Source of the DNA: Aquisalimonas lutea
GTDB taxonomy: Bacteria > Pseudomonadota > Gammaproteobacteria > Nitrococcales > Aquisalimonadaceae
DNA: 64,000 nt
Assembly: GCF_030409225.1 (NCBI RefSeq)
Contig: NZ_JAUFPK010000001.1
Location: 2,223,566-2,287,565 of the forward strand
Reading direction: 5' to 3'
Positions 39,104-49,043 of this stretch are shown one piece after another (within the stretch, counting starts at the first letter, position 1; each line of letters begins with the position of its first letter). The notes under the pieces are model-generated. The model did not search any database. It saw only the letters and a list, made by a program, of their open reading frames with translations, and was not told the origin of the DNA. The position numbers were made by a program, and so were the translations under genes.

Positions 39104-39286
39104 GGACTGCAGCACTTCGGAGACCTTCAGACCGGCGAGCCCCCGCGGGTGGGACATGTTGTGAAAGCGGACGAAATACCGCATTCGGTACCAGTAGGTC
39201 TTCTCGGTTCTCGGGCTGCAACGTCGAGTACGTATGACATCCCTGACAACATACCGCGGTCGACGCGGGCGCTCCGGTGTGTTCAT
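39104..39286 (-). pseudogene. Integron integrase (IntI-type) N-terminal remnant
   Basis: The minus-strand frame reads RDVIRTRRCSPRTEKTYWY, then RMRYFVRFHNMSHPRGLAGL and VSEVLQ. This matches the N-terminal SAM-like domain of integron integrases (RxxhYSxRTExaYxxWxxxFIxFHxxxHPxxMGxxEVexFL). The following sequence lost similarity and no catalytic Arg/His/Tyr region remains, so the enzyme is dead. It is divergent from the cassette array that begins near 39496, the standard integron arrangement. Confidence 0.7.
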
Positions 39287-39534
39287 TGTTCGATGGCCTC
39301 CGTGCCAACGGTTACTGGTCTTTTATTCAGTATCATTGCGGTACGAAAACGCACCGTCAGGTGATTGCTGGCCCCGCGTGGCCCTGCCGCGGTAACCTTC
39401 CGGAAGAAGGGGAAAAATCGTTGGGGTCAAGGCCAGTGAAGGTAGATATCTCGCCGTCACCGTGATCGAATCATCGTGAAGGCGGTTGAATCACTGTTAT
39501 GACCATGAGGGCACGCAATAAAGGAGAATAATGG
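39287..39534. other. Candidate attI/promoter region of the integron
   Basis: This 248-base gap separates the integrase remnant from the first cassette. GTTATGA at 39496-39502 fits a degenerate insertion core (GTTRRRY-like), placing the left edge of the first cassette there. AAGGAG at 39522-39527 is the ribosome site of the first cassette gene. Composition changes from GC-rich to AT-rich across it. No other gene is seen. Confidence 0.4.
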
Positions 39535-39777
39535 ATGTATCAGTATAAGATGGTTCAAATACCACCAAATATTGCTGTCAAAATGAAAGCCCATAAGGGC
39601 AATGAGGCCGCTGCATACCTTGAGCAGGTTGTTAATGAATACGCCGCCCAGGGTTGGGAATTTTTCCGGGTGGATAGCATCGGCGTCAGTTTGCAGCCTG
39701 GGTGCTTTGATGCCCTGAGTGGCAAAAAAGAAGAAAATAGTCAGTACCATGTGATCACCTTTCGGAAGCCACGATAG
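39535..39777 (+). CDS. DUF4177-like cassette protein
   Basis: An 80-residue protein (YQYKMVQIPPNI, AAAYLEQVVNEYAAQGWEFFRVDSIG, YHVITFRKPR) with the DUF4177 pattern, in which an LexxxNexAxxGWExxxv core is diagnostic. No function is assigned to the family. It is the first gene of cassette 1, followed two bases later by yidD. Base composition is much more AT-rich than the chromosome, fitting a foreign cassette. The pair DUF4177-YidD is, to my knowledge, a recurrent cargo of integron cassettes. Confidence 0.75.
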   Translation: MYQYKMVQIPPNIAVKMKAHKGNEAAAYLEQVVNEYAAQGWEFFRVDSIGVSLQPGCFDALSGKKEENSQYHVITFRKPR

Positions 39778-39779
39778 CT

Positions 39780-39983
39780 ATGGTTTGGCTCTCGATAAGA
39801 CTGATTCAGTTTTACCGGATGGTGTCGCCGAAGAAATTGAGAAATGCATGCTTGTTCGAGCCAACATGCTCGGAATATTCCGTGTTGGCACTAAGAAAGC
39901 ACGGGTTTATCAAAGGTTGGTCTCTAGCCCTAAATCGTATCTCAAGGTGTAGGCAGCCCAACGGCGGTATAGATGAACCTTAG
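39780..39983 (+). CDS. YidD-family membrane protein insertion efficiency factor, cassette-borne
   Basis: A 67-residue YidD homologue: LIRLIQFYRMVSPKK, then CLFEPTCSEYSVLALRKHG and GWSLALNRISRCRQPNGGIDEP, which hold the conserved Cys-x3-Pro-Thr-Cys-Ser-x-Tyr and Arg-Cys-x-Pro-x-Gly-Gly motifs. Chromosomal YidD assists YidC-dependent membrane insertion. Its stop codon directly abuts the attC site at 39984, as usual for cassettes. This would be an extra, mobile copy; the housekeeping copy would normally lie beside rnpA, which is not in this window. Confidence 0.85.
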   Translation: MVWLSIRLIQFYRMVSPKKLRNACLFEPTCSEYSVLALRKHGFIKGWSLALNRISRCRQPNGGIDEP

Positions 39984-40061
39984 TCATAACAAGTTGCGCC
40001 ACGCGGATGGCCTTTTCTCCGCTTTGCTCCAAAACGGCCACCGGTGCGCTCTACGTTAGGC
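39984..40061 (+). repeat. Integron attC recombination site 1
   Basis: It begins with the R'' core TCATAAC (39984-39990) immediately after the yidD stop codon and ends with the R' core GTTAGGC (40055-40061). Between them, inverted segments (TTGCGCCAC with GGTGCGC, and GGCC with GGCC) fold the site into the characteristic hairpin with an unpaired base. Length is 78 bases. Confidence 0.75.
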
Positions 40062-40085
40062 AAGAAATAAACCTCGGGAATCTGA

Positions 40086-40490
40086 ATGGAAAATCGTGTT
40101 CCACTGCCGACGGACAACATTTACAAGTTCTATGCCCTGTTCGGGCTTTTGCTGATTATTTTCTCTATCGGTGCGATGCTTTACGTGAACAAATCAACCA
40201 ACGATTTGGCTTTCGATGTGGCGGTCGAATACGAAACGTTGAAGGCTGACCCGATGCGCTCGGTGGCAGATGAGGCTCGATTTACAGTACTGGAAAGGAA
40301 GCTCGAAATTGCAGGGAAAAATAAGAAAACCTTCATGATATTTCTTTCGGTGATCATCGCGGCCGGAAGCCTCATGGTCTGGTATGGATTTAAGAAATGG
40401 CATACCGAAGTCCAGCCCGTGCAAGATGAAATTGCAAGACTGAACCTTCTGAAGCTAAAACGAGAAGTCGGGGAGGACGGTGAGGCCTAA
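40086..40490 (+). CDS. Two-helix membrane protein in an integron cassette
   Basis: A 134-residue protein with membrane helices at about residues 15-35 (ALFGLLLIIFSIGAMLYV) and 78-97 (TFMIFLSVIIAAGSLMVWYGF), an intervening periplasmic or cytoplasmic domain (STNDLAFDVAVEYETLKAD) and a charged, coiled C-terminal tail (VQDEIARLNLLKLKREVG). No family is recognised. It fills cassette 2 alone and its TAA overlaps the following attC site, as cassette genes do. It is AT-rich relative to the chromosome. Confidence 0.65.
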   Translation: MENRVPLPTDNIYKFYALFGLLLIIFSIGAMLYVNKSTNDLAFDVAVEYETLKADPMRSVADEARFTVLERKLEIAGKNKKTFMIFLSVIIAAGSLMVWYGFKKWHTEVQPVQDEIARLNLLKLKREVGEDGEA

Positions 40491-40568
40491 CCATCGCAGG
40501 CACGGCGACGTCTTTTCCATTGCAGCTTCGCCTCCATTCCAAAGCCGCGCATTCTGCGGGCGTTATGT
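40485..40568 (+). repeat. Integron attC recombination site 2
   Basis: The site runs from the R'' core GCCTAAC (40485-40491), overlapping the cassette-2 stop codon, to the R' core GTTATGT (40562-40568). CGCAG (40495-40499) pairs with CTGCG near the right end, and inner arms are also complementary. Length is 84 bases. Confidence 0.75.
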
Positions 40569-40586
40569 AGAAAAGGAGTTCGAGCA

Positions 40587-41417
40587 ATGAGCAGTTGGAA
40601 ACTTTCACAGTCTTACGACTACGACGGGCGAAAAGTTCGTTATGGCCGGTTGGGCGAAGGCCCACCAATGGTCCTTGTTCATGGGACTCCCTGGTCATCA
40701 TTCAATCTGCGACATCTGATACAACAGCTGTCCAATAAGTACGCGGTCTATTTTTTTGACTTGCTGGGCTATGGCCAATCTTGTACAGCGGAAGGCGACG
40801 TATCGTTGGGAGTACAGAATAAGGTTTTGGATAGCTTGCTTACTCACTGGGGGCTGGACAATCCGATTATTGTCGGTCATGACTTTGGTGGCGCTACCGC
40901 GCTCAGAGCCCATCTTCTAAATGAACGGTCTTTCAAGAAGATTATTTTGATTGATCCGGTCGCAGTCTCTCCTTGGGGCTCACCGTTTTTCCGCCATGTA
41001 AACAGGTATGAAGCCGCTTTTTCAGGGCTCCCAGACTATATTCACGAAGCTGTGGTCCGGTCCTACGTCCAAACGGCTGCTTTCAAGCCAATTGATGAGG
41101 CAACACTGGAGGGAATCGTTTCGCCGTGGACTGGCGAGCATGGCAAGACAGCTTTCTATCGTCAGATGGCTCAAGCGGACTCTAAATATACCGACGAGGT
41201 CCAGTCGCTTTATCCTACGATTACTACACCTACCTTGATTCTCTGGGGGCGAGAGGATAGCTGGATACCGCTGGAGCGCGGGGAAGAGCTCCACAGCTTG
41301 ATTCCGGGATCGGCTTTTCGCGTGATTGATGATGCAGGCCACCTCGTCATCGAAGAGAAGCCTTGTGAGGTGGTGCAGGAGATCTTGGATTTTTGCTTAG
41401 ACCTCGAAGCTACATAA
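40587..41417 (+). CDS. Alpha/beta hydrolase with Asp nucleophile, integron cassette gene
   Basis: A 276-residue alpha/beta-hydrolase. The oxyanion segment is VLVHGTPWSSFN, the nucleophile elbow is VGHDFGGATA, and the acid and base are probably Asp of LILWGREDSW and His of DDAGHLV. An Asp nucleophile in GHDxGG is typical of epoxide hydrolases and haloalkane or haloacetate dehalogenases rather than esterases. The substrate is unknown. AAGGAG precedes the ATG at 40587. It is cassette 3, ending in the attC site at 41412, and is AT-rich relative to the chromosome. Confidence 0.85.
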   Translation: MSSWKLSQSYDYDGRKVRYGRLGEGPPMVLVHGTPWSSFNLRHLIQQLSNKYAVYFFDLLGYGQSCTAEGDVSLGVQNKVLDSLLTHWGLDNPIIVGHDFGGATALRAHLLNERSFKKIILIDPVAVSPWGSPFFRHVNRYEAAFSGLPDYIHEAVVRSYVQTAAFKPIDEATLEGIVSPWTGEHGKTAFYRQMAQADSKYTDEVQSLYPTITTPTLILWGREDSWIPLERGEELHSLIPGSAFRVIDDAGHLVIEEKPCEVVQEILDFCLDLEAT

Positions 41418-41495
41418 CCAGTGGCAGCACGGTGGCCGCGTTTCTGCCGCGTTGCGGCTCCAAACCCAAACCGGCACGTGTGCCAGACGTTACCG
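41412..41495 (+). repeat. Integron attC recombination site 3
   Basis: The R'' core ACATAAC (41412-41418) overlaps the hydrolase stop codon; the R' core GTTACCG is at 41489-41495. GTGGCAGCACG near the left pairs with CACGTGTGCCA near the right, with an extrahelical base. Length is 84 bases. This is the last cassette boundary; about 100 bases further begins the tRNA-Asn flank. Confidence 0.7.
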
Positions 41496-41595
41496 GGAAT
41501 CAGATCGGACGCTCGAGGATCAAGCGTGGCTAGCGAGTTCGCGTTGACGTGGAGACGTGGACGCTTGACCAGTGACAGTTATGTGCCAATCCACG

Positions 41596-41626
41596 AAAAA
41601 GGCCCTAGCCGAAGTCGACTAGGGCC
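41596..41626 (-). terminator. Displaced original terminator of tRNA-Asn
   Basis: On the minus strand GGCCCTAG (41626-41619), a ten-base loop and CTAGGGCC (41608-41601) are followed by TTTTT (41600-41596). It lies just beyond the attL repeat. Before the element inserted, this would have been the terminator immediately downstream of tRNA-Asn. Confidence 0.8.
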
Positions 41627-41632
41627 TCACTC

Positions 41633-41685
41633 TTGTTGGCTCCCCGGGACGGGCTCGAACCGCCGACCCAGTGATTAACAGTCAC
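41633..41685. repeat. attL: 53-base copy of the tRNA-Asn 3' part
   Basis: This stretch is identical over 53 bases to 48964-49016. It covers the tRNA-Asn sequence from the anticodon arm to the 3' CCA plus four bases beyond, in minus orientation. The adjacent sequence (GTTCCGTAG) no longer matches the tRNA 5' half, so this copy is only a fragment. Confidence 0.9.
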
Positions 41686-41812
41686 GTTCCGTAGTGTTTC
41701 ACCGTCTTTCCATCCATTCCGACAGTCGTAGATAAATACCGTCATGACAGCACCTTAATCGTATCTTGTGTTGCGCTCTGTTTCGTCGTAGTGCATACTT
41801 TGCCTAAGTGAA

Positions 41813-41835
41813 TGTGCACTACAGTGTGCACTACA
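41813..41835 (+). repeat. Integrase arm-type sites, left end
   Basis: TGTGCACTACA occurs twice, at 41813-41823 and 41825-41835, exactly 12 bases apart, just before the integrase gene; a partial inverted copy (GTAGTGCAT) is near 41789. The same pair occurs near the right end (48890-48911). Tandem arm repeats at both ends are typical of tyrosine integrase binding. Confidence 0.75.
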
Positions 41836-41849
41836 GAGCAGGGGGTAAC

Positions 41850-43139
41850 ATGCTTACGGTGAAGCAACTCGACAACCTCAAGCCCAAGGGCAGCCCGTAT
41901 CGTGTTTGGGACTCTGACCGCTCAGGCTTCGGTGCACAGGTGAGCAAGGCTGGTGTTGTCACCTTCTTCCAGTTCTACCGGATGGAAGGCAAGCGCCGGT
42001 TTATGAACCTTGGCCGCTATCCTGACAAGAGCTTGCGTGACGCACGAGAAGAGGCCGCAGAGGCCCGTAACCTTGTTCAGCAGGGGGTAGACCCACAGGA
42101 CAAGCGAGAAGCCGACAGAGAGGCAGAGAAGGCCGAGAAGCGCCGCCGGGATGCTGAACCGTTGGTGTCTGATGCTGTGGCGACCTACATCCGTAAGCAC
42201 GTGTCCGGGCTGGCCAGTGAAAAGCCTATCACTCGCTATTTCGAGCGGGACTTGGTGCCGGAGCTAGGCGAGTTGAAGGTAAAGGACGTGCGCCGCCGTG
42301 ATGTTCTGAACATGGTGGAGAAGAAGGCCGCCCAGACTCCCACCGCTGCACGGCACTTGCTGGCGTACACCAAGGGTTTTTTTGATTGGTGTGTGGACCG
42401 GGAGTATATCGACGCGAGCCCCGCCGCTGGCATCAAGCCGAAGTCGGTCAAGGCTGAGGGCAAGAAAAACGCTCTGAGGCCCGGCAAGCGGGCGAGGGTG
42501 CTGGATGCTGGGGAAACCCGCACGTTCTGGAATGAGGTAGAAGGCTGCGGAGTCCGTCGCCTGACCGCTCTGGCGCTGAAACTGGTTCTCGTGACGGGGC
42601 AACGCCCGGGCGAGGTGGCCGGGATACACAAGGATGAGATTGATGGTGATGTGTGGACGATTCCGGCAGAGCGGCGGTTGAAGACGGAAAGCGAACACGT
42701 TGTGCCGCTGGCACCGCTGGCGCTAGAACTCATTGAGCAGGCACAACAGGAGGTGCAGAGGCTCCAGGCACGGCGCAGCGACAAGGCAACCGGGTATATC
42801 TTCGAGGCGTACCCCGGCAGTGCGCTGACTGTGGGGGCACTCAGTAAGGCGGTGACGCGCTACGCTGAGGCGCTGGGGAATCAGGACGATACCAAATGGG
42901 GGCATTGGACACCCCACGATTTGCGGCGGACGTGCCGCACGGGGCTTAGTGAGATGGACATACCCGACGAGATAGGCGAGGCGGTCATAGGGCACGTCAA
43001 GCTAGGTATGGTCGGGGTGTATAACCAGAACAAGTACGTTAACCGCAAGCGGGAAGCTCTGGAGGCGTGGGAGCGCCGGTTGCTGCGTCTGGCGGTAGGC
43101 GAGGAAGCCACAAAGGACAACGTTGTGTCGCTGCACTGA
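41850..43139 (+). CDS. int: Tyrosine-type site-specific integrase (P4-like)
   Basis: A 429-residue integrase with an N-terminal arm-binding domain (MLTVKQLDNLKPKG, SGFGAQVSKAGVVTFF), a core-binding SAM-like domain (AVATYIRKHVSGL onward) and a catalytic domain carrying Arg in VTGQRPGEVAGI, His-x-x-Arg in TPHDLRRTCRT, His in IGHVKLGMV and the nucleophile Tyr in GVYNQNKY. All catalytic residues are present, so it is probably active. The ATG at 41850 is preceded by AGGGGG; earlier codons overlap the arm repeats. It lies at the end away from the intact tRNA, and an intrinsic terminator follows at 43162. Confidence 0.92.
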   Translation: MLTVKQLDNLKPKGSPYRVWDSDRSGFGAQVSKAGVVTFFQFYRMEGKRRFMNLGRYPDKSLRDAREEAAEARNLVQQGVDPQDKREADREAEKAEKRRRDAEPLVSDAVATYIRKHVSGLASEKPITRYFERDLVPELGELKVKDVRRRDVLNMVEKKAAQTPTAARHLLAYTKGFFDWCVDREYIDASPAAGIKPKSVKAEGKKNALRPGKRARVLDAGETRTFWNEVEGCGVRRLTALALKLVLVTGQRPGEVAGIHKDEIDGDVWTIPAERRLKTESEHVVPLAPLALELIEQAQQEVQRLQARRSDKATGYIFEAYPGSALTVGALSKAVTRYAEALGNQDDTKWGHWTPHDLRRTCRTGLSEMDIPDEIGEAVIGHVKLGMVGVYNQNKYVNRKREALEAWERRLLRLAVGEEATKDNVVSLH

Positions 43140-43510: not shown

Positions 43511-43672
43511 ATGAAGGAACTACTTATAACCACTAGCGACGGGCGGCAGTTCCGGTTTTCTTCCCCCTATACACCAGATTCCATTTTAAGCCGAGAGTAC
43601 GTGGTAGTAGATACCATATATATTGTTAAATATCAGATAGTTACGATTGAAGTCTTATCAGAGAGTAGTTGA
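43511..43672 (+). CDS. Small unrecognised protein, 53 residues
   Basis: The frame MKELLITTSDGRQFRF, SSPYTPDSILSREYVVVDTI, YIVKYQIVTIEVLSESS is beta-rich and could be a small regulator or antitoxin-like protein, but no family is recognised. It is preceded by AT-rich DNA without an ideal ribosome site. Its 3' end overlaps the end of the leftward sigma-factor gene by 40 bases on the opposite strand. It is a plausible but uncertain gene. Confidence 0.35.
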   Translation: MKELLITTSDGRQFRFSSPYTPDSILSREYVVVDTIYIVKYQIVTIEVLSESS

Positions 43673-44136
43673 CGGGCGCGGTGCAGGCGGGAGCGTACCG
43701 TACCAATGTTCGCGTTCATGGCTTCGCTGATTTCTTCGTAGGTCAGTCCGTCGACGTGGCGGTATAGAATACTAAGCCCCAACTCTTCGGGCATGTTGTC
43801 CACGGCGTCGCTGATGGCGTCTAGTCTCTGGTCGCGTTCTAGCTCGCTGTCGGGGCTATCAAAGTCACTAATGATAATTTCCCCGTCTTCCTCGGTGTCT
43901 TGGTAGCGCGGGCGGCGACTTTGGGCCACTAGGTAGTTTTTGGCTGTGTTTACAGCGATACGGTGCAACCAGGTCCGTACTGCACTCTCTCCCCTGAAGG
44001 ATTCCCGGGCACGCCACGCCTTCAAGAAAGCCTCCTGTGTGACTTCTTCGGCCTCGGCGGGGTTGCGCACGTAGCGGGATACAACACTGTGAATATAGCT
44101 TTTGTTGTCGTTATAAATTGCTTCAAAATCAATCAT
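43633..44136 (-). CDS. ECF-like sigma-70 family factor
   Basis: A 167-residue RpoE-type factor with region 2 (YIHSVVSRYVRNPAEAEEVTQEAFLKAWRARESFRGESAVRTWLHRIAVNTA) and region 4 (MPEELGLSILYRHVDGLTYEEISEAMNANIGTVRSRLHRAR), joined by an acidic linker. It should direct host RNA polymerase to specific promoters, perhaps those of the element or of a helper phage. No anti-sigma gene is adjacent. It is the last gene of the leftward operon and overlaps the previous gene by eight bases. A sigma factor on so small an element is unusual. Confidence 0.88.
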   Translation of the reverse strand: MIDFEAIYNDNKSYIHSVVSRYVRNPAEAEEVTQEAFLKAWRARESFRGESAVRTWLHRIAVNTAKNYLVAQSRRPRYQDTEEDGEIIISDFDSPDSELERDQRLDAISDAVDNMPEELGLSILYRHVDGLTYEEISEAMNANIGTVRSRLHRARQLLSDKTSIVTI

Positions 44137-44599
44137 TTGTGTCGTCTAATGCCTCGCCTTCTATGACATCTACCCCCAGCAGGTTAGCGAGTTTCCGCTT
44201 CGCCCCGTCTTCTACGTGCACATAACTCTCTGACACCACGTGCTGACGTTCGGTGAATCTCTCCGGCATGTTGGCTTTAGCCAGAGCCATCAACAGTTTG
44301 TCGCTGTATTCCCGCTCTTCGCCTACTTTCTCGCCCTTGTAATAGACACCCTTACCAATCCCCTGGATTCCCCGACGGTGCATCTCTCGTTCTATTTCAA
44401 GACAGGCACGGTCCCGGGCTTGGTTGATACGCTCCCGGAACTCGGGTTCGCGCTCCATGGCGAAGTAAACAGTGCGACGGTTGACCCCTACCTCGGCACA
44501 ACAAGCGGACAGGTTGGCGGTCTGGGCCAGTAGCTCAACGAGCTTGTCCTTCTTGTCCTCGGTGAGTCTGGCGCGGGATTGTATTGGTTTATCCGTCAT
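44129..44599 (-). CDS. Terminase-small-subunit-like DNA-binding protein
   Basis: A 156-residue protein: KLVELLAQTANLSACCAEVG, VNRRTVYFAMEREPEFRERI (helix-turn-helix), INQARDRACLEIEREMHRRG and YSDKLLMALAKANMPERFTE. This layout matches the phage terminase small subunits of the HTH class, where YSDxLLxxLLKaxxPexy is typical. It might recognise packaging sites and redirect a helper phage's terminase, or be another DNA-binding regulator. It overlaps the sigma-region-4 miniprotein by 11 bases upstream and the sigma-factor gene by eight bases downstream. No strong ribosome site is seen at the ATG, consistent with coupling. Confidence 0.65.
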   Translation of the reverse strand: MTDKPIQSRARLTEDKKDKLVELLAQTANLSACCAEVGVNRRTVYFAMEREPEFRERINQARDRACLEIEREMHRRGIQGIGKGVYYKGEKVGEEREYSDKLLMALAKANMPERFTERQHVVSESYVHVEDGAKRKLANLLGVDVIEGEALDDTND

Positions 44600-44723
44600 G
44601 ATTTCGTGCCCGATGAAGGCGGGAACGGACTGTACCAATAGGCACCTTTAGATAATTCGCAATTTCCAAATAAGACAGCCCGGATTCCCGCAAAAGTAGT
44701 GTGACTCTCAGTTTTTGGCTCAT
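44589..44723 (-). CDS. Sigma region-4-like helix-turn-helix miniprotein, 44 residues
   Basis: The frame reads MSQKLRVTLLLRESGLSYLE, IANYLKVPIGTVRSRLHRAR, NHDG. It is essentially an isolated sigma-70 region 4, sharing IGTVRSRLHRAR with the sigma factor encoded at 43633-44136. Its ATG overlaps the stop codon of the upstream gene (ATGA), and its TAA overlaps the start of the next gene, so both boundaries support translation. It may compete with or modify sigma binding to the -35 element or to RNA polymerase. Confidence 0.7.
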   Translation of the reverse strand: MSQKLRVTLLLRESGLSYLEIANYLKVPIGTVRSRLHRARNHDG

Positions 44724-45334
44724 GACAGCGGCAGTTTCTGATACTCGTCGAACCCGTAGGAAGAGATGAACTCCCGTTTCTGGTTGTCGTTCATTTCTCC
44801 GCGCTTCATTCGGGGTACGGGTTTCTGTCCACCAGTTGCAGCACCGCGAGTGCCGCCGCCTTGCTGACCTCGGCCTCGGAAAGCACCCTGGAACCTCTCG
44901 TCCTTCTTCAACTCCGCCACATAATCAGAAACCGGCTTATCACCAACCACCACGCCGTCATCCGTCACTTCGGCTGACTTCTCCAGTACGGGCCGCAGTA
45001 GGTCCGGGATGCCCCCATGGTCGGCGATAGCGCGTTCTACAGCGGCCTGCTTCTCTGTCCCCTCAACACGGGCCTTCAGTTGCTCTAGGGTCTCTTCCGT
45101 ACCCTGGAGGCGCTGTTGGTATTCCTTAGCTGCCGCGTCTGAGTCGGCTTTTTCTTGCTCAATCTCTTTCAGTTTGAGGCGGCGGTTCTTGCCTTCGGTG
45201 TTCAACTCGTGAATGCGCTCGCGTGCGCCGGTAAGTTGTTCCTCCATCTGGGCAAGCTGTGCCTGTAGCTCTTCAATTGTTGGCTGATTGTTGTTTTCCA
45301 CATCGTCGTTAAATTCTTCGGCCATCTCGGTCAT
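44720..45334 (-). CDS. Long coiled-coil protein with C-terminal motif (scaffold-like)
   Basis: A 204-residue protein, mostly coiled coil from residues about 18-95 (IEELQAQLAQMEEQLTGARE and a further heptad run), then a globular part (IADHGGIPDLLRPVLEKSAEV), a Gly-rich linker (GRGQQGGGTRGAATGG) and a C-terminal motif PRMKRGEMNDNQKREFISSYG, FDEYQKLPLS. The general plan resembles phage capsid scaffolding proteins (helical oligomeriser plus C-terminal hook), but no specific family is recognised. The C-terminal motif recurs in the neighbouring 82-residue protein. ATGA overlaps join it to both neighbours. Confidence 0.7.
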   Translation of the reverse strand: MTEMAEEFNDDVENNNQPTIEELQAQLAQMEEQLTGARERIHELNTEGKNRRLKLKEIEQEKADSDAAAKEYQQRLQGTEETLEQLKARVEGTEKQAAVERAIADHGGIPDLLRPVLEKSAEVTDDGVVVGDKPVSDYVAELKKDERFQGAFRGRGQQGGGTRGAATGGQKPVPRMKRGEMNDNQKREFISSYGFDEYQKLPLS

Positions 45335-45579
45335 AGGGGTAGCTCCTCATAAACATCAATTCCAAATTCGGCAATAACGCGGCGCTTTGTTTGGTCGTCC
45401 ATTTTTGAGCGTTTGAGATTGGCGAGCTTGGGAACGGCGTCGCGTTTCTCTCGCATTTTCTCAATCTCGGCTTCTCGTTCCTTTTCCTTTTCGGCTTCTT
45501 CTAGCTTTGCCTCGGTTTCGGCTAAGCGTTCTTCGAGTTCGGCGCGAATCTGCTCGTCCGTCTTCTCTTCTTCAGTCAT
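45331..45579 (-). CDS. Short coiled-coil protein sharing the C-terminal motif
   Basis: An 82-residue protein with a highly charged single helix (about residues 4-48, Glu/Lys-rich) followed by PKLANLKRSKMDDQTKRRVI, AEFGIDVYEELPL. That tail aligns with the tail of the 204-residue neighbour (K-R-x-x-M-x-D, K-R, I, G-x-D-x-Y, L-P-L), so the two genes encode a long and a short helix carrying the same C-terminal module. It overlaps both neighbours by ATGA. It may be a size-altering or competing partner in an assembly. Confidence 0.7.
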   Translation of the reverse strand: MTEEEKTDEQIRAELEERLAETEAKLEEAEKEKEREAEIEKMREKRDAVPKLANLKRSKMDDQTKRRVIAEFGIDVYEELPL

Positions 45580-45911
45580 TGCGTTACCTCACGATAGAGT
45601 TTCATAATATCTTGAAAGTTTGAGCTTTCTGAATAGTTCTCCAGAATCAATGCCTCTGTTTCCGCTTTGAATTGTTCAATTTCTGGGCTGGTCATTTCAT
45701 TACGAATTAAGCCGGCGATAGTTACAAGCCTTTCCGGCACGTCAACTTGGGTTTTAAGTTCGTGTCGTAATACGTCTTTCAGATTAAAATATTCCTTGTT
45801 ACCACACTTTAGCGGTGCGGGAATAAAGCCACTGCGTACAGCGAAATCGACACCTTCCAGTGTGCATTCCCAACGTGTCGCTAATTCTTCTTTCGTGATA
45901 GACTCAGTCAT
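45576..45911 (-). CDS. Winged-helix/Nu1-like small DNA-binding protein
   Basis: A 111-residue protein. Residues 1-55 (ITKEELATRWECTLEGVDFA, GFIPAPLKCGNKEYFNLKDVL) look like a MerR/AlpA/Nu1-type winged helix, in which a short recognition helix is followed by a Pro-containing wing and a Y/F-xx-KDV strand. The rest is helical and acidic. No named family is certain. It overlaps the following coiled-coil gene by ATGA and lies 44 bases after the nuclease-like gene. Confidence 0.55.
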   Translation of the reverse strand: MTESITKEELATRWECTLEGVDFAVRSGFIPAPLKCGNKEYFNLKDVLRHELKTQVDVPERLVTIAGLIRNEMTSPEIEQFKAETEALILENYSESSNFQDIMKLYREVTQ

Positions 45912-45954: not shown

Positions 45955-46446
45955 TTAACCTTGGAGTTCCGTAATAATTTCGCTCACATTCGGAATTACT
46001 TGTATAATTGGCGCTTCATCAATCGGCACCAATGCGCCTACAGAATGGTATAACGTACCACTGTATCCTGTTGTTTTTGTTGGGATAGCTGGATAGTCCC
46101 GTACCTCAAGCTGTGTCTTGATATCACGGGGACGGAACACATACGTAACATCCGAATCAAGATAATAATAAAACCAGTAATCGGCGCGGCTGGTGTAGAT
46201 ACACCCCGGGGTTGCCTTTTCGTCGTTGCTGATTATCTCAATAAACAGATTGTTAGCCGGATGGGTGTCTGTCTTCACATCAATCGTGAATACGTCTTCA
46301 CGCTTTCGGGCCACAATATCAATGTCATTTTCCTGAAAGAACTCATGGTCAGACGTGTCTATGATTGTCCAGCCCCGATGTGTTAGCCACGAAATGATGA
46401 GTTGTTCACCCTGTTGCCCGGTTTCCTTCGAAGTTTGAAAATCCAT
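45955..46446 (-). CDS. PD-(D/E)XK-superfamily nuclease-like protein
   Basis: A 163-residue protein. The N-terminal KETGQQGEQLIISWLTHRG and IIDTSDHEFFQENDIDIVAR, followed by VFTIDVKTD, fit the PD-(D/E)XK active-site layout (Glu on the first helix, Asp in NDIDIV, and the D-V-K pair). It may be a resolvase, a restriction-like nuclease or a structure-specific nuclease; C-terminal strands are not assignable. It overlaps the polymerase-like gene by 41 bases, so the two are closely linked in expression and perhaps in DNA replication or recombination. Confidence 0.6.
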   Translation of the reverse strand: MDFQTSKETGQQGEQLIISWLTHRGWTIIDTSDHEFFQENDIDIVARKREDVFTIDVKTDTHPANNLFIEIISNDEKATPGCIYTSRADYWFYYYLDSDVTYVFRPRDIKTQLEVRDYPAIPTKTTGYSGTLYHSVGALVPIDEAPIIQVIPNVSEIITELQG

Positions 46447-47695
46447 GGCGAATTTTCTCCTTTGTTATTGTTATTCTGTATCCGGTCTCTTGTTCTACTA
46501 GGCGTTCCATTTCCGCAGTGTCATAGCTTTCGGTGGACATGAAGCCGTCATACATGGGTACGTCTACCCTTTTGTCCCGGGATACAACAGCGAGCAATTG
46601 ACTCTCGATGTTCTGTAATTTGTTGCTTAGTGCAACGTGGAAATTATCAACGTCACCGACCAATTTACGGCCCGCGTCAACGGTTTCGTTGTAATATTCT
46701 GACACCCATGGATGGTCCCAAAAGGCACGAACCTTATTGCGGCCTAGATTTTTGGCAACCGCGCACTTCTTCTCATACAGCCCATCATCGGCACCAAACA
46801 GCACCGCAATAATGCTCGTCTTAACCGGCTTGTATTCGCATCCAATATCAGCGGCCACCATCTCCCGCACGGCGCGTGGATTGTCTACAAGCGCCTGGGT
46901 CCGGGGGTAGTCACCAAAGTGCGCCAGTATGGCTTGGTGACAGGCGGTGAAATCATAATCCCAATACCCGTTCATCGCGGCGGTGCGTAAGTTCTCGTGC
47001 GCGTTCTGGATGGCAAACCCACCAGAGCCAACAATGCGCCCGTTGGGGATTTGATGGTACGACTGCGGGATAACACCAACAGGGAGTTGATTCTTTGCCG
47101 CCATGGCTTTGATAAGCCGAACACGAGTAATCCAACGCTCGTTATCAGCGGTGGTATGGATATAATCATCCAGAGCACTCAGGTCTACGTGAACCTGCCC
47201 GGACACCACAAGGTCACCAACGTGAACCCGCTGGGGGATGAATCGTGCCTGACGGTCGCGTAATTGCCCCCGTACCTCGGCAATCTCACGGATAAGCCCG
47301 GCGGAGGTTAGCCCGCTCAGGAGGTCAAACACGATTGGATTCGGGTAGACCCGGCGAGCGTAGCGGTCCCGTTCAAAGTGTGGGTCAACGGTGAAGAACC
47401 GGTACTTATCATTCACCCGCTTAAAGGACTTGTCACAATGCCCAATCGAATGGAGGTAGGATGTGGAAACACAACAGGCCGTTGGGTCTTGGTAATGTGT
47501 TTTAGGATGAGTCAGAAGTTTAATAATTAGCCTCTGAGTTCCCTTTGTCTCTTCACCAAATCAATCTAGATTGTTATATAAATAATCTGATATATCCGGA
47601 TAGAATGTGGTGCAGGTAGCCGGGAATCGAGGCGGGGAAGAACCGGTCTGGCCGCTAATTTCGGCGAGAGGACTTAAAGTATTGTTTTCTGGCAT
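46406..47695 (-). pseudogene. Small palm-polymerase-like protein, interrupted by an in-frame TGA at codon 45
   Basis: An ATG at 47695 with an ideal GGAGGG site opens a frame of 44 codons (MPENNTLSPLAEISG onward) that hits TGA at 47563-47561. The same frame then stays open to 46406 and contains no ATG before the GTG at 47416; the intervening codons (FGEETKGTQRLIIKLL, CVSTSYLHSIGHCDKSF) look coding. The whole would be about 429 residues. In it, IQNAHENLRTAA with YWDYDFTACHQAILAHFG resembles polymerase motif A, VKTSIIAVLFGADDG motif B, and LQNIESQLLAVV with DVPMYDGFMS motif C of family A polymerases or single-subunit RNA polymerases. Shorter translation from GTG 47416 is possible. Function is tentative. 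Confidence 0.55.
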
Positions 47696-47914: not shown

Positions 47915-48131
47915 ATGTTAGACAGGAGTATTGTGGCGGAAATCGTCAAACACTTCCGGGGAAAGATACCTGTACGTGGCTCGGAAAGCGGAAAGATTAG
48001 GAGTTCACAGGAGGAAATTCAACGAATGGCACAGAAGATGGGGTACCCTACCGGGTCGGGGTGAATCGGCCGAAATCCACCCCACAAACCCTGAAAAGTT
48101 TCTATTGGCCATTCTTTTCAAGTTGGTCTAG
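47915..48131 (+). pseudogene. Fis-like helix-turn-helix gene with a likely frameshift
   Basis: GGGGAGG lies four bases before an ATG at 47915 that reads MLDRSIVAEIVKHFRG. From about 47958 the similarity continues in the +1 frame as ERYLYVARKAERLGVHRRKF NEWHRRWG, a Fis-type recognition helix. A single-base gain in the CCGGGG run near 47955 would explain this. Uncorrected, the first frame gives a 49-residue product without HTH. The 3' end overlaps the converging membrane-protein gene. Confidence 0.4.
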
Positions 48132-48521
48132 CCTCTGGTCAAGGATTTTATTGACTTTTTGTTGCTCTTCGACGAGGTTCAGGACGTCGAAAAGTACGTT
48201 ACGAAAACGTTTGAAGAACCAAAGGAGAACAAATAGCATCAAGGCGAAGACAAGCAAGCCCGTTTGGATAGAAATAAGAAGGACGGTGCTGTGGGTTACG
48301 GTGTCGTGAGTCGCCAGGGTTCGCCATATACCTAACGTGGGCAGGACTACCGCCAGCGTGAGAAGGGTCCAGTGAATCCAGGGTTTGACGACCTTACCTA
48401 GGCGGTCAATAGCGTCCTCTGGGGACTGTGCCCCTGCTGTCACAATAGGCGTTGCAACGCTGATGATGATAGCGGGAAGGCTAGTAAGTATTGTAATTAG
48501 AATATTGGTAGTGAGACCCAT
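48102..48521 (-). CDS. Three-helix membrane protein with coiled-coil tail
   Basis: A 139-residue protein with membrane segments ILITILTSLPAIIISVATPI, WTLLTLAVVLPTLGIW and LLISIQTGLLVFALMLFVLLW, and a C-terminal coiled coil (LNLVEEQQKVNKILDQRLDQLE). It could be a holin-like or superinfection-exclusion-type protein, but no family is recognised. It lies at the right part of the element, read leftward, with the palindromic promoter region at 48672 upstream as its likely control site. Confidence 0.6.
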   Translation of the reverse strand: MGLTTNILITILTSLPAIIISVATPIVTAGAQSPEDAIDRLGKVVKPWIHWTLLTLAVVLPTLGIWRTLATHDTVTHSTVLLISIQTGLLVFALMLFVLLWFFKRFRNVLFDVLNLVEEQQKVNKILDQRLDQLEKNGQ

Positions 48522-48862: not shown

Positions 48863-48889
48863 GACGGGGAGGCGGTAGCAAGGTCCAAC

Positions 48890-48911
48890 GTGCACTACAA
48901 TGTGCACTACA
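48890..48911 (+). repeat. Integrase arm-type sites, right end
   Basis: GTGCACTACA at 48890-48899 and TGTGCACTACA at 48901-48911 repeat with a 12-base period, matching the pair at 41813-41835. Inverted GTAGTGC copies lie at 48781 and 48835. They sit about 55 bases from the right attachment repeat. Confidence 0.75.
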
Positions 48912-48925
48912 GCCCGGATAGGCAT

Positions 48926-48957
48926 AAAAAAAGGGCTAGGCCGATTGACCTAACCCC
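48926..48957 (-). terminator. Element-supplied terminator for tRNA-Asn
   Basis: On the minus strand GGGGTTAGG (48957-48949) and CCTAGCCC (48940-48933) form a stem with one mismatch, followed by seven T. It lies about ten bases past the tRNA 3' end inside the element, and replaces the original terminator that is now at 41596-41626. Confidence 0.85.
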
Positions 48958-48963
48958 TTGATT

Positions 48964-49043
<80 letters not shown>

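Follow-up and report, generated by a model that had tools for sequence, protein, structure and literature searches.

A divergent TV-Pol-type family-A polymerase gene in a putative phage satellite of Aquisalimonas lutea

Background

A short reading frame in the genome of Aquisalimonas lutea carries, one after another, what look like the motifs of family-A polymerases, and it raises the question of whether so small a protein belongs to this superfamily and, if it does, which element it would serve and how. The window analysed here is a stretch of 64,000 nucleotides (NZ_JAUFPK010000001.1, 2,223,566-2,287,565), and all coordinates count from its first letter. In our assessment the product of the gene is quite probably a family-A DNA polymerase of the TV-Pol kind, standing alone and without an exonuclease, which belongs to an integrated phage satellite of 7.3 kb and works there in the manner proposed below.

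The reading frame and its internal stop codon

46406-47695, minus strand: TV-Pol-type family-A polymerase gene (429 codons from the ATG at 47695 to the stop, with a TGA at codon 45)

The frame singled out in a preliminary description of this DNA, 46406-47560, is open over 384 codons and contains all the motifs cited there, in the cited order; the strand is corrected here, the gene lying on the minus strand. The length of about 430 residues proposed for the protein holds only if the in-frame TGA at 47563-47561 (minus strand; codon 45 counting from the ATG at 47695) is read through, since the open part has 384 codons and 336 from a usual start. A ribosome site, GGAGG, lies a few bases upstream of this ATG. 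The first ATG, GTG or TTG past the TGA is the GTG at 47416, and the 336-residue product starting there retains the entire polymerase core.

Both flanks of the TGA align ungapped with the N-terminus of the intact homologue from Methylonatrum kenyense (score 102 against 43 for the best of 1000 shuffles), and the gene is therefore regarded as interrupted in A. lutea. The TGA is either a true nonsense mutation or a sequence error; barring the latter, it suggests that the A. lutea copy is inactive. Given so early a stop, the full-length polymerase is probably not made from this copy, and its core could be made only through a restart at GTG 47416 or through read-through.

Catalytic motifs and comparison with Pol I

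Queried with the polymerase, both as a single protein and as a profile, Pfam, PHROGs, NCBIfam, PADLOC and PDB sequences gave nothing usable, so that these standard libraries cannot reveal its family membership. Across nine proteins the invariant residues are Q137, D155, K199, G208-A209, E271 and D290-G291 (numbering of the 336-residue frame), and those that stay fixed over distant relatives are exactly the would-be catalytic ones. A profile-profile comparison (hhalign) with housekeeping Pol I gave a score of 65.4, compared with a maximum of 24.6 for 60 column shuffles and 16.9 for the reversed alignment. In this alignment D203 pairs with the Asp of DYSQIELR in motif A, and His208 with the Glu of the same motif, the steric gate; K247 pairs with the O-helix Lys and F255-G256 with Tyr-Gly, keeping the O-helix pattern K-x7-[YF]G in register; and Tyr337-Asp338-Gly339 pairs with the His-Asp-Glu of motif C. 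Outside these motifs GR-x-Y pairs with GRLS, QN with QN, and LQ-x2-E with MQGTAAD, and the template-strand Arg on the hairpin before motif A is represented by the invariant R175, paired with the GRL of Pol I. The earlier reading of motifs A, B and C is borne out, as the residues correspond one-to-one with those of Pol I and both the score and the conservation in distant relatives argue against chance.

On the motif alignment and this profile score, the Asp/Asp/Lys set of two-metal-ion nucleotidyl transfer is in place. In the A. lutea polymerase motif C has a Gly in place of its second acidic residue and a Tyr in place of its His, and the Arg of the RxxxK pattern is absent; activity should therefore not be assumed. 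Among the close relatives aligned, the His to Tyr change in motif C and the Tyr to Phe change in the O-helix occur in the A. lutea copy only. Both satellite polymerases, from A. lutea and M. kenyense, are also about 25-35 residues shorter between motifs B and C than other members. With housekeeping Pol I the protein shares the fold of palm, fingers and thumb and the order of the motifs; it differs in lacking exonuclease domains, the motif-C Glu and the motif-B Arg, and its aligned core covers about 280 residues.

Predicted structure

An AlphaFold2 model of the A. lutea polymerase built from 14 sequences reached a pLDDT of 80.3 and a pTM of 0.69, and a model of a full-length relative of 493 residues a pLDDT of 82.1 and a pTM of 0.80. 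Both predicted models have the right-hand architecture, including a palm of the Pol I type. With the A. lutea model, Foldseek placed Klenow (1kfd) first (E 2.6e-6), and VIA-align gave Z-scores of 15.5 for Pol theta, 14.7 for T7 DNA polymerase and 14.5 for Klenow, in matches extending over about 245-250 residues. The 493-residue relative gave Z-scores of 14.3-16.6 against Klenow, T7 DNA polymerase and Pol theta, the maximum being that for Klenow. Matches in a viral structure library were phage Pol I proteins and virophage replication proteins. In the A. lutea model the motif-A strand contains Asp203, and the hairpin of motif C carries Asp338 in its turn. The proposed palm architecture has thus come through structure prediction, with Klenow in first place and Z-scores of 14.5-15.5 against family-A polymerases, and the missing exonuclease domain noted at the outset is confirmed by the minimal domain found here.

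These comparisons also bear on a second reading, in which the genes of the element are transcribed by this protein as a T7-like RNA polymerase of the single-subunit type. GR-x-Y precedes motif A in RNA polymerases, and motif C of T7 RNA polymerase is HDS; the GR-x-Y ahead of motif A and the HDG/YDG of motif C, which lack the second acid, resemble these features, and the profile score against four T7-like RNA polymerases, 29.4 (probability 2.9%), is slightly above the shuffled maximum of 23.2, although Pol I itself likewise fails to match them. On the same scale, however, Pol I scores 65.4, the steric gate is a bulky His (H208) as opposed to the Gly of T7 RNA polymerase, and the element has a sigma factor of its own for transcription. 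The best 50 structural matches listed for the A. lutea model are DNA polymerases, which argues in the same direction, although the absence of T7-like RNA polymerases from them is by itself no proof. We consider the RNA polymerase reading highly improbable, and the affinity to T7 RNA polymerase suggested at first finds no support here; synthesis of DNA would be the better guess for this polymerase than synthesis of RNA.

Assignment to the TV-Pols

The polymerase is of a kind already known since 2008 as TV-Pol. Iyer, Abhiman and Aravind (2008, PMC2579912) described TV-Pols as minimal superfamily-A polymerases of 400-600 residues from transposons and viruses, proposed that they act as combined primase and polymerase of selfish elements, named Microcystis phage Ma-LMM01 and a Thauera species among their holders, and stated that they are never linked to nuclease genes. 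The initial impression that the protein is far smaller than known family-A polymerases cannot be upheld in view of these sizes. A profile of bacterial members built without the A. lutea protein recovered that protein at 2e-43 and, also built without phage members, Ma-LMM01 gp030 at 2.4e-4 with no unrelated match above it (E-values for a database size Z = 1e6); tblastn from the relative on Polaromonas plasmid pH8NP1 likewise indicated the relation to the named TV-Pols (6e-5).

Like the TV-Pols, the A. lutea protein is a stand-alone minimal superfamily-A polymerase with two catalytic Asp, the template-strand Arg in GR-x-Y and the fingers Lys, and it is found in a mobile element with a resolvase or integrase. 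Its length of 429 codons, counted through the stop, falls in the range of 400-600 residues and comes without an exonuclease. Of the linkage expected in a mobile element, to a D5-like helicase or to a resolvase or integrase, the integrase is present and the helicase is not. It differs from the described TV-Pols in having a linked nuclease gene, TerS and scaffold genes alongside and no D5 helicase neighbour. The RxxxK pattern of the fingers is half present, with the Lys in place and the Arg at -4 absent from the A. lutea protein and the close relatives aligned, and we therefore speak of a divergent TV-Pol-type polymerase. The same Arg is absent from Ma-LMM01 gp030, itself a named TV-Pol, and we take it to be a common rather than a universal feature of the group.

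In the literature searched, the only characterised TV-Pol is CCPol of SCCmec, with an SCCmer-like relative mentioned as unpublished. By itself CCPol elongates primers, and with MP, its OB-fold partner, it is able to prime de novo; the same two Asp serve both reactions, and the known CCPol-MP pairs come from Bacillota and stand nearer to housekeeping Pol I (Bebel 2020, PMC7581432; Rice 2023, PMC10061031). The pair resembles the A. lutea case in its reduced family-A polymerase with two catalytic Asp, its integrative element and its proposed role as replicase. Its operon has MP and the helicase Cch2, neither of which is recognised in the A. lutea element, and the presence of a helicase and a single-strand-binding partner in the characterised system counts against reading the A. 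lutea protein as a satellite replicase (PMC7581432; PMC10061031).

The integrated element

The gene lies in an element of 7,331 bp between exact 53-bp repeats at tRNA-Asn, with a GC content of 52% against 69% in its surroundings. The features of the element are as follows.

41633-41685, unstranded: left attachment repeat, exact 53-bp copy of the tRNA-Asn 3' end
41808-43139, plus strand, convergent to the operon: tyrosine integrase (Phage_integrase 1.4e-19, Arm-DNA-bind_3 1.3e-19)
41811-41836, plus strand: left copy of the GTGCACTACA box pair (repeat family D4), possible integrase arm sites
43633-44136, minus strand: ECF-type sigma factor (Pfam Sigma70_r2 7.5e-20, Sigma70_r4_2 6e-15)
44129-44638, minus strand: terminase small subunit TerS (phrog_4044 3.5e-30; matches the annotated TerS of several phages)
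44720-45334, minus strand: phage head scaffolding protein, 204 aa (phrog_206 1.8e-18)
45331-45579, minus strand: "mini-scaffold", 82 aa, a charged helix and the scaffold C-terminal motif
45576-45911, minus strand: putative DNA-binding, helix-turn-helix or excisionase-like protein, 111 aa (weak PHROG excisionase match, 0.086)
45955-46446, minus strand: PD-(D/E)XK nuclease-like protein, 163 aa (Pfam UPF0102 4.5e-5, just above cut-off; PDDEXK_5 0.0012)
48102-48521, minus strand: unclassified ORF, 139 aa (no family match above cut-off)
48887-48912, plus strand: right copy of the GTGCACTACA box pair (repeat family D4)
48964-49016, unstranded: right attachment repeat, inside the 3' end of tRNA-Asn 48968-49043 (minus strand)

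The operon runs from the polymerase through the PD-(D/E)XK nuclease-like protein, the helix-turn-helix-like protein, the mini-scaffold, the scaffold and TerS to the ECF-type sigma factor. The 82-residue protein looks like a mini-scaffold because its C-terminus matches the scaffold profile (5e-4). By sequence, the polymerase has nuclease-like and helix-turn-helix-like neighbours and no helicase match; in the element as a whole neither a helicase gene nor a single-strand-binding partner was recognised, and no capsid, portal or large terminase was found among its classified ORFs, with the 139-residue ORF left unclassified.

A terminator-like sequence beside the attachment repeat is partly duplicated (41596-41626 and 48927-48957, within a 90-bp repeat of 81% overall identity). 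A second low-GC stretch (46-56%) lies directly to the left of the element at 39250-41600, with a YidD-like ORF at 39780-39983 and an alpha/beta hydrolase at 40587-41417; it is perhaps an older insertion beside the same tRNA site.

The state of the element has to be weighed together with the interrupted gene, as the polymerase could be a dead remnant in a decaying island with no present function. The TGA at codon 45 and the motif-C and O-helix substitutions particular to the A. lutea copy point that way. Against it, the remaining 384 codons are open and keep the catalytic Asp and Lys, the other genes of the element are intact, and the attachment repeats are still identical at 53 of 53 positions, which dates either the insertion or the damage as recent. 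We regard decay as a serious possibility, though one that falls short of an even chance.

The counterpart in Methylonatrum kenyense

In M. kenyense (locus L030) the eight genes recur in unchanged order within about 7.1 kb, flanked by repeats at tRNA-Ala. Identity between the two elements is 56% for the scaffold, 52% for TerS, 48% for the ECF-type sigma factor, 41% for the mini-scaffold, 40% for the nuclease-like protein and 33% for the helix-turn-helix-like protein, and it is lowest, at 26%, for the polymerase. The two polymerases are joined in the tree at 88/88, both on long branches, and for the latter reason the tree does not demonstrate a single acquisition. Relatives of both TerS and the scaffold are encoded by Nitrincola phage 1M3-16 from a Kenyan soda lake, which makes phages of this kind candidate helpers. 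A search for a helper prophage in the A. lutea genome with one weak query, a single major head protein, gave no match.

Proposed role in a phage satellite

Two marks of satellites of the PICI type are seen, namely site-specific integration with flanking repeats (at tRNA-Asn, and at tRNA-Ala in M. kenyense) and packaging-hijack genes (TerS and scaffold) without a virion gene set. Known PICIs use a primase and Rep (Fillol-Salom 2018, PMC6092414); like the A. lutea element they are small and tRNA-integrated and carry an integrase, a DNA-binding regulator, a replication gene and TerS without a virion gene set. The A. lutea element, a putative satellite, differs from them in its TV-Pol, its two scaffold-type proteins and its ECF-type sigma factor.

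The best reading of the TV-Pol is as the satellite's primase/replicase, for which we infer a DNA polymerase/primase activity together with dependence on a helper and diversion of its capsids; in the A. lutea copy the stop codon probably disables the polymerase. A helper phage would induce the element and the integrase would excise it; the TV-Pol would then prime DNA, extend it or do both to replicate the element, with a helicase from the host or the helper, proposed because the element encodes none; and the scaffolds and TerS would divert the helper's capsids and packaging to satellite DNA. Of the reduced replicase or transcriptase for a mobile element envisaged in the preliminary description, the replicase fits this context, and the transcriptase is as improbable as the RNA polymerase reading.

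The nuclease-like gene offers another way to start DNA: the PD-(D/E)XK protein would cut one strand of the element, and the TV-Pol would synthesise from that nick by strand displacement, which would make both a primase and a helicase gene in the element dispensable. In A. lutea the polymerase gene overlaps at its end with the nuclease-like gene by 41 bp, and the two are neighbours in both satellites, despite the statement that TV-Pols are never nuclease-linked (PMC2579912), and no helicase gene is seen. The nuclease assignment is weak, however, the M. kenyense counterpart has no Pfam match, and small PD-(D/E)XK proteins also act in restriction, resolution and anti-phage roles; we find nick priming rather unlikely. 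Provided that the assignment holds, both satellites would be an exception to the rule.

No paper in the literature searched joins TV-Pols with phage satellites, and the setting appears to be new; if the reading is true, the habitats of TV-Pols would gain phage satellites. With slightly less than even confidence we suggest a separate family of tiny satellites, found so far in two genera of one gammaproteobacterial family, with a pared-down TV-Pol, no helicase or primase-Rep of its own, priming perhaps at nicks made by the PD-(D/E)XK partner, two scaffolds that would re-size helper capsids, and its own sigma factor. If a TV-Pol of 392-429 residues does serve as the sole recognisable replication protein in a satellite of 7 kb, it would offer a minimal system in which to ask what a family-A core at its smallest requires to start DNA.

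Distribution of relatives

Whole-genome searches place relatives of the polymerase in about one genome per hundred across the phylum, with one in the same bacterial family, the M. kenyense protein (genome G007). A scan of species genomes gave thirteen loci, in Burkholderiales (Thauera, Rhodoferax, Roseateles, Pelomonas and others), Pectobacterium, Symbiopectobacterium and Methylonatrum; scans of viral contigs for polymerase relatives found none. Intact relatives have 392-538 residues, and at other loci they adjoin serine resolvases and tyrosine integrases, in keeping with the 2008 description of TV-Pols. Distant members occur in large phages, namely Ma-LMM01 (gp030), Vibrio phage GR11A and Desulfovibrio phage 7757.

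By tblastn, relatives were found on two small Polaromonas plasmids, pH8NP1 and pW9NP1. Since both plasmids encode RepA as well, they probably have a replication protein besides the TV-Pol. The pH8NP1 relative (L002:6095-7600) is annotated as a "Clp protease N-terminal domain-containing protein", apparently spuriously, and its Pfam Clp_N match (8e-4, below cut-off) was taken as spurious; that on pW9NP1 is annotated as hypothetical. Two further matches were set aside as chance, one by tblastn to the T3 internal virion protein (E 0.4) and one to a Halobaculum plasmid (E 0.04), the protein of which has membrane segments.

Some of the relatives have features of their own. In Vibrio phage GR11A (195 kb; L010:4951-7720) a distant relative of 617 residues is encoded immediately upstream of a gene for ribonuclease HI, and the two are possibly a pair of polymerase and primer-removal enzyme. 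The relative of Desulfovibrio phage SRB7757 (L007:7200-9503; record unannotated) has 767 residues, with an additional C-terminal region of about 200 residues, and another of 657 residues (L017:1387-3360) carries a 23-residue segment, NADALSDTFGTSTQYITGAASPV, in about four tandem copies ahead of the polymerase core. Relatives in Symbiopectobacterium (L028:5067-6755) and Pelomonas (L026:10461-12029) lie near restriction genes, for an Mrr-type endonuclease and HsdM, in agreement with published descriptions of TV-Pol elements at defence hot spots.
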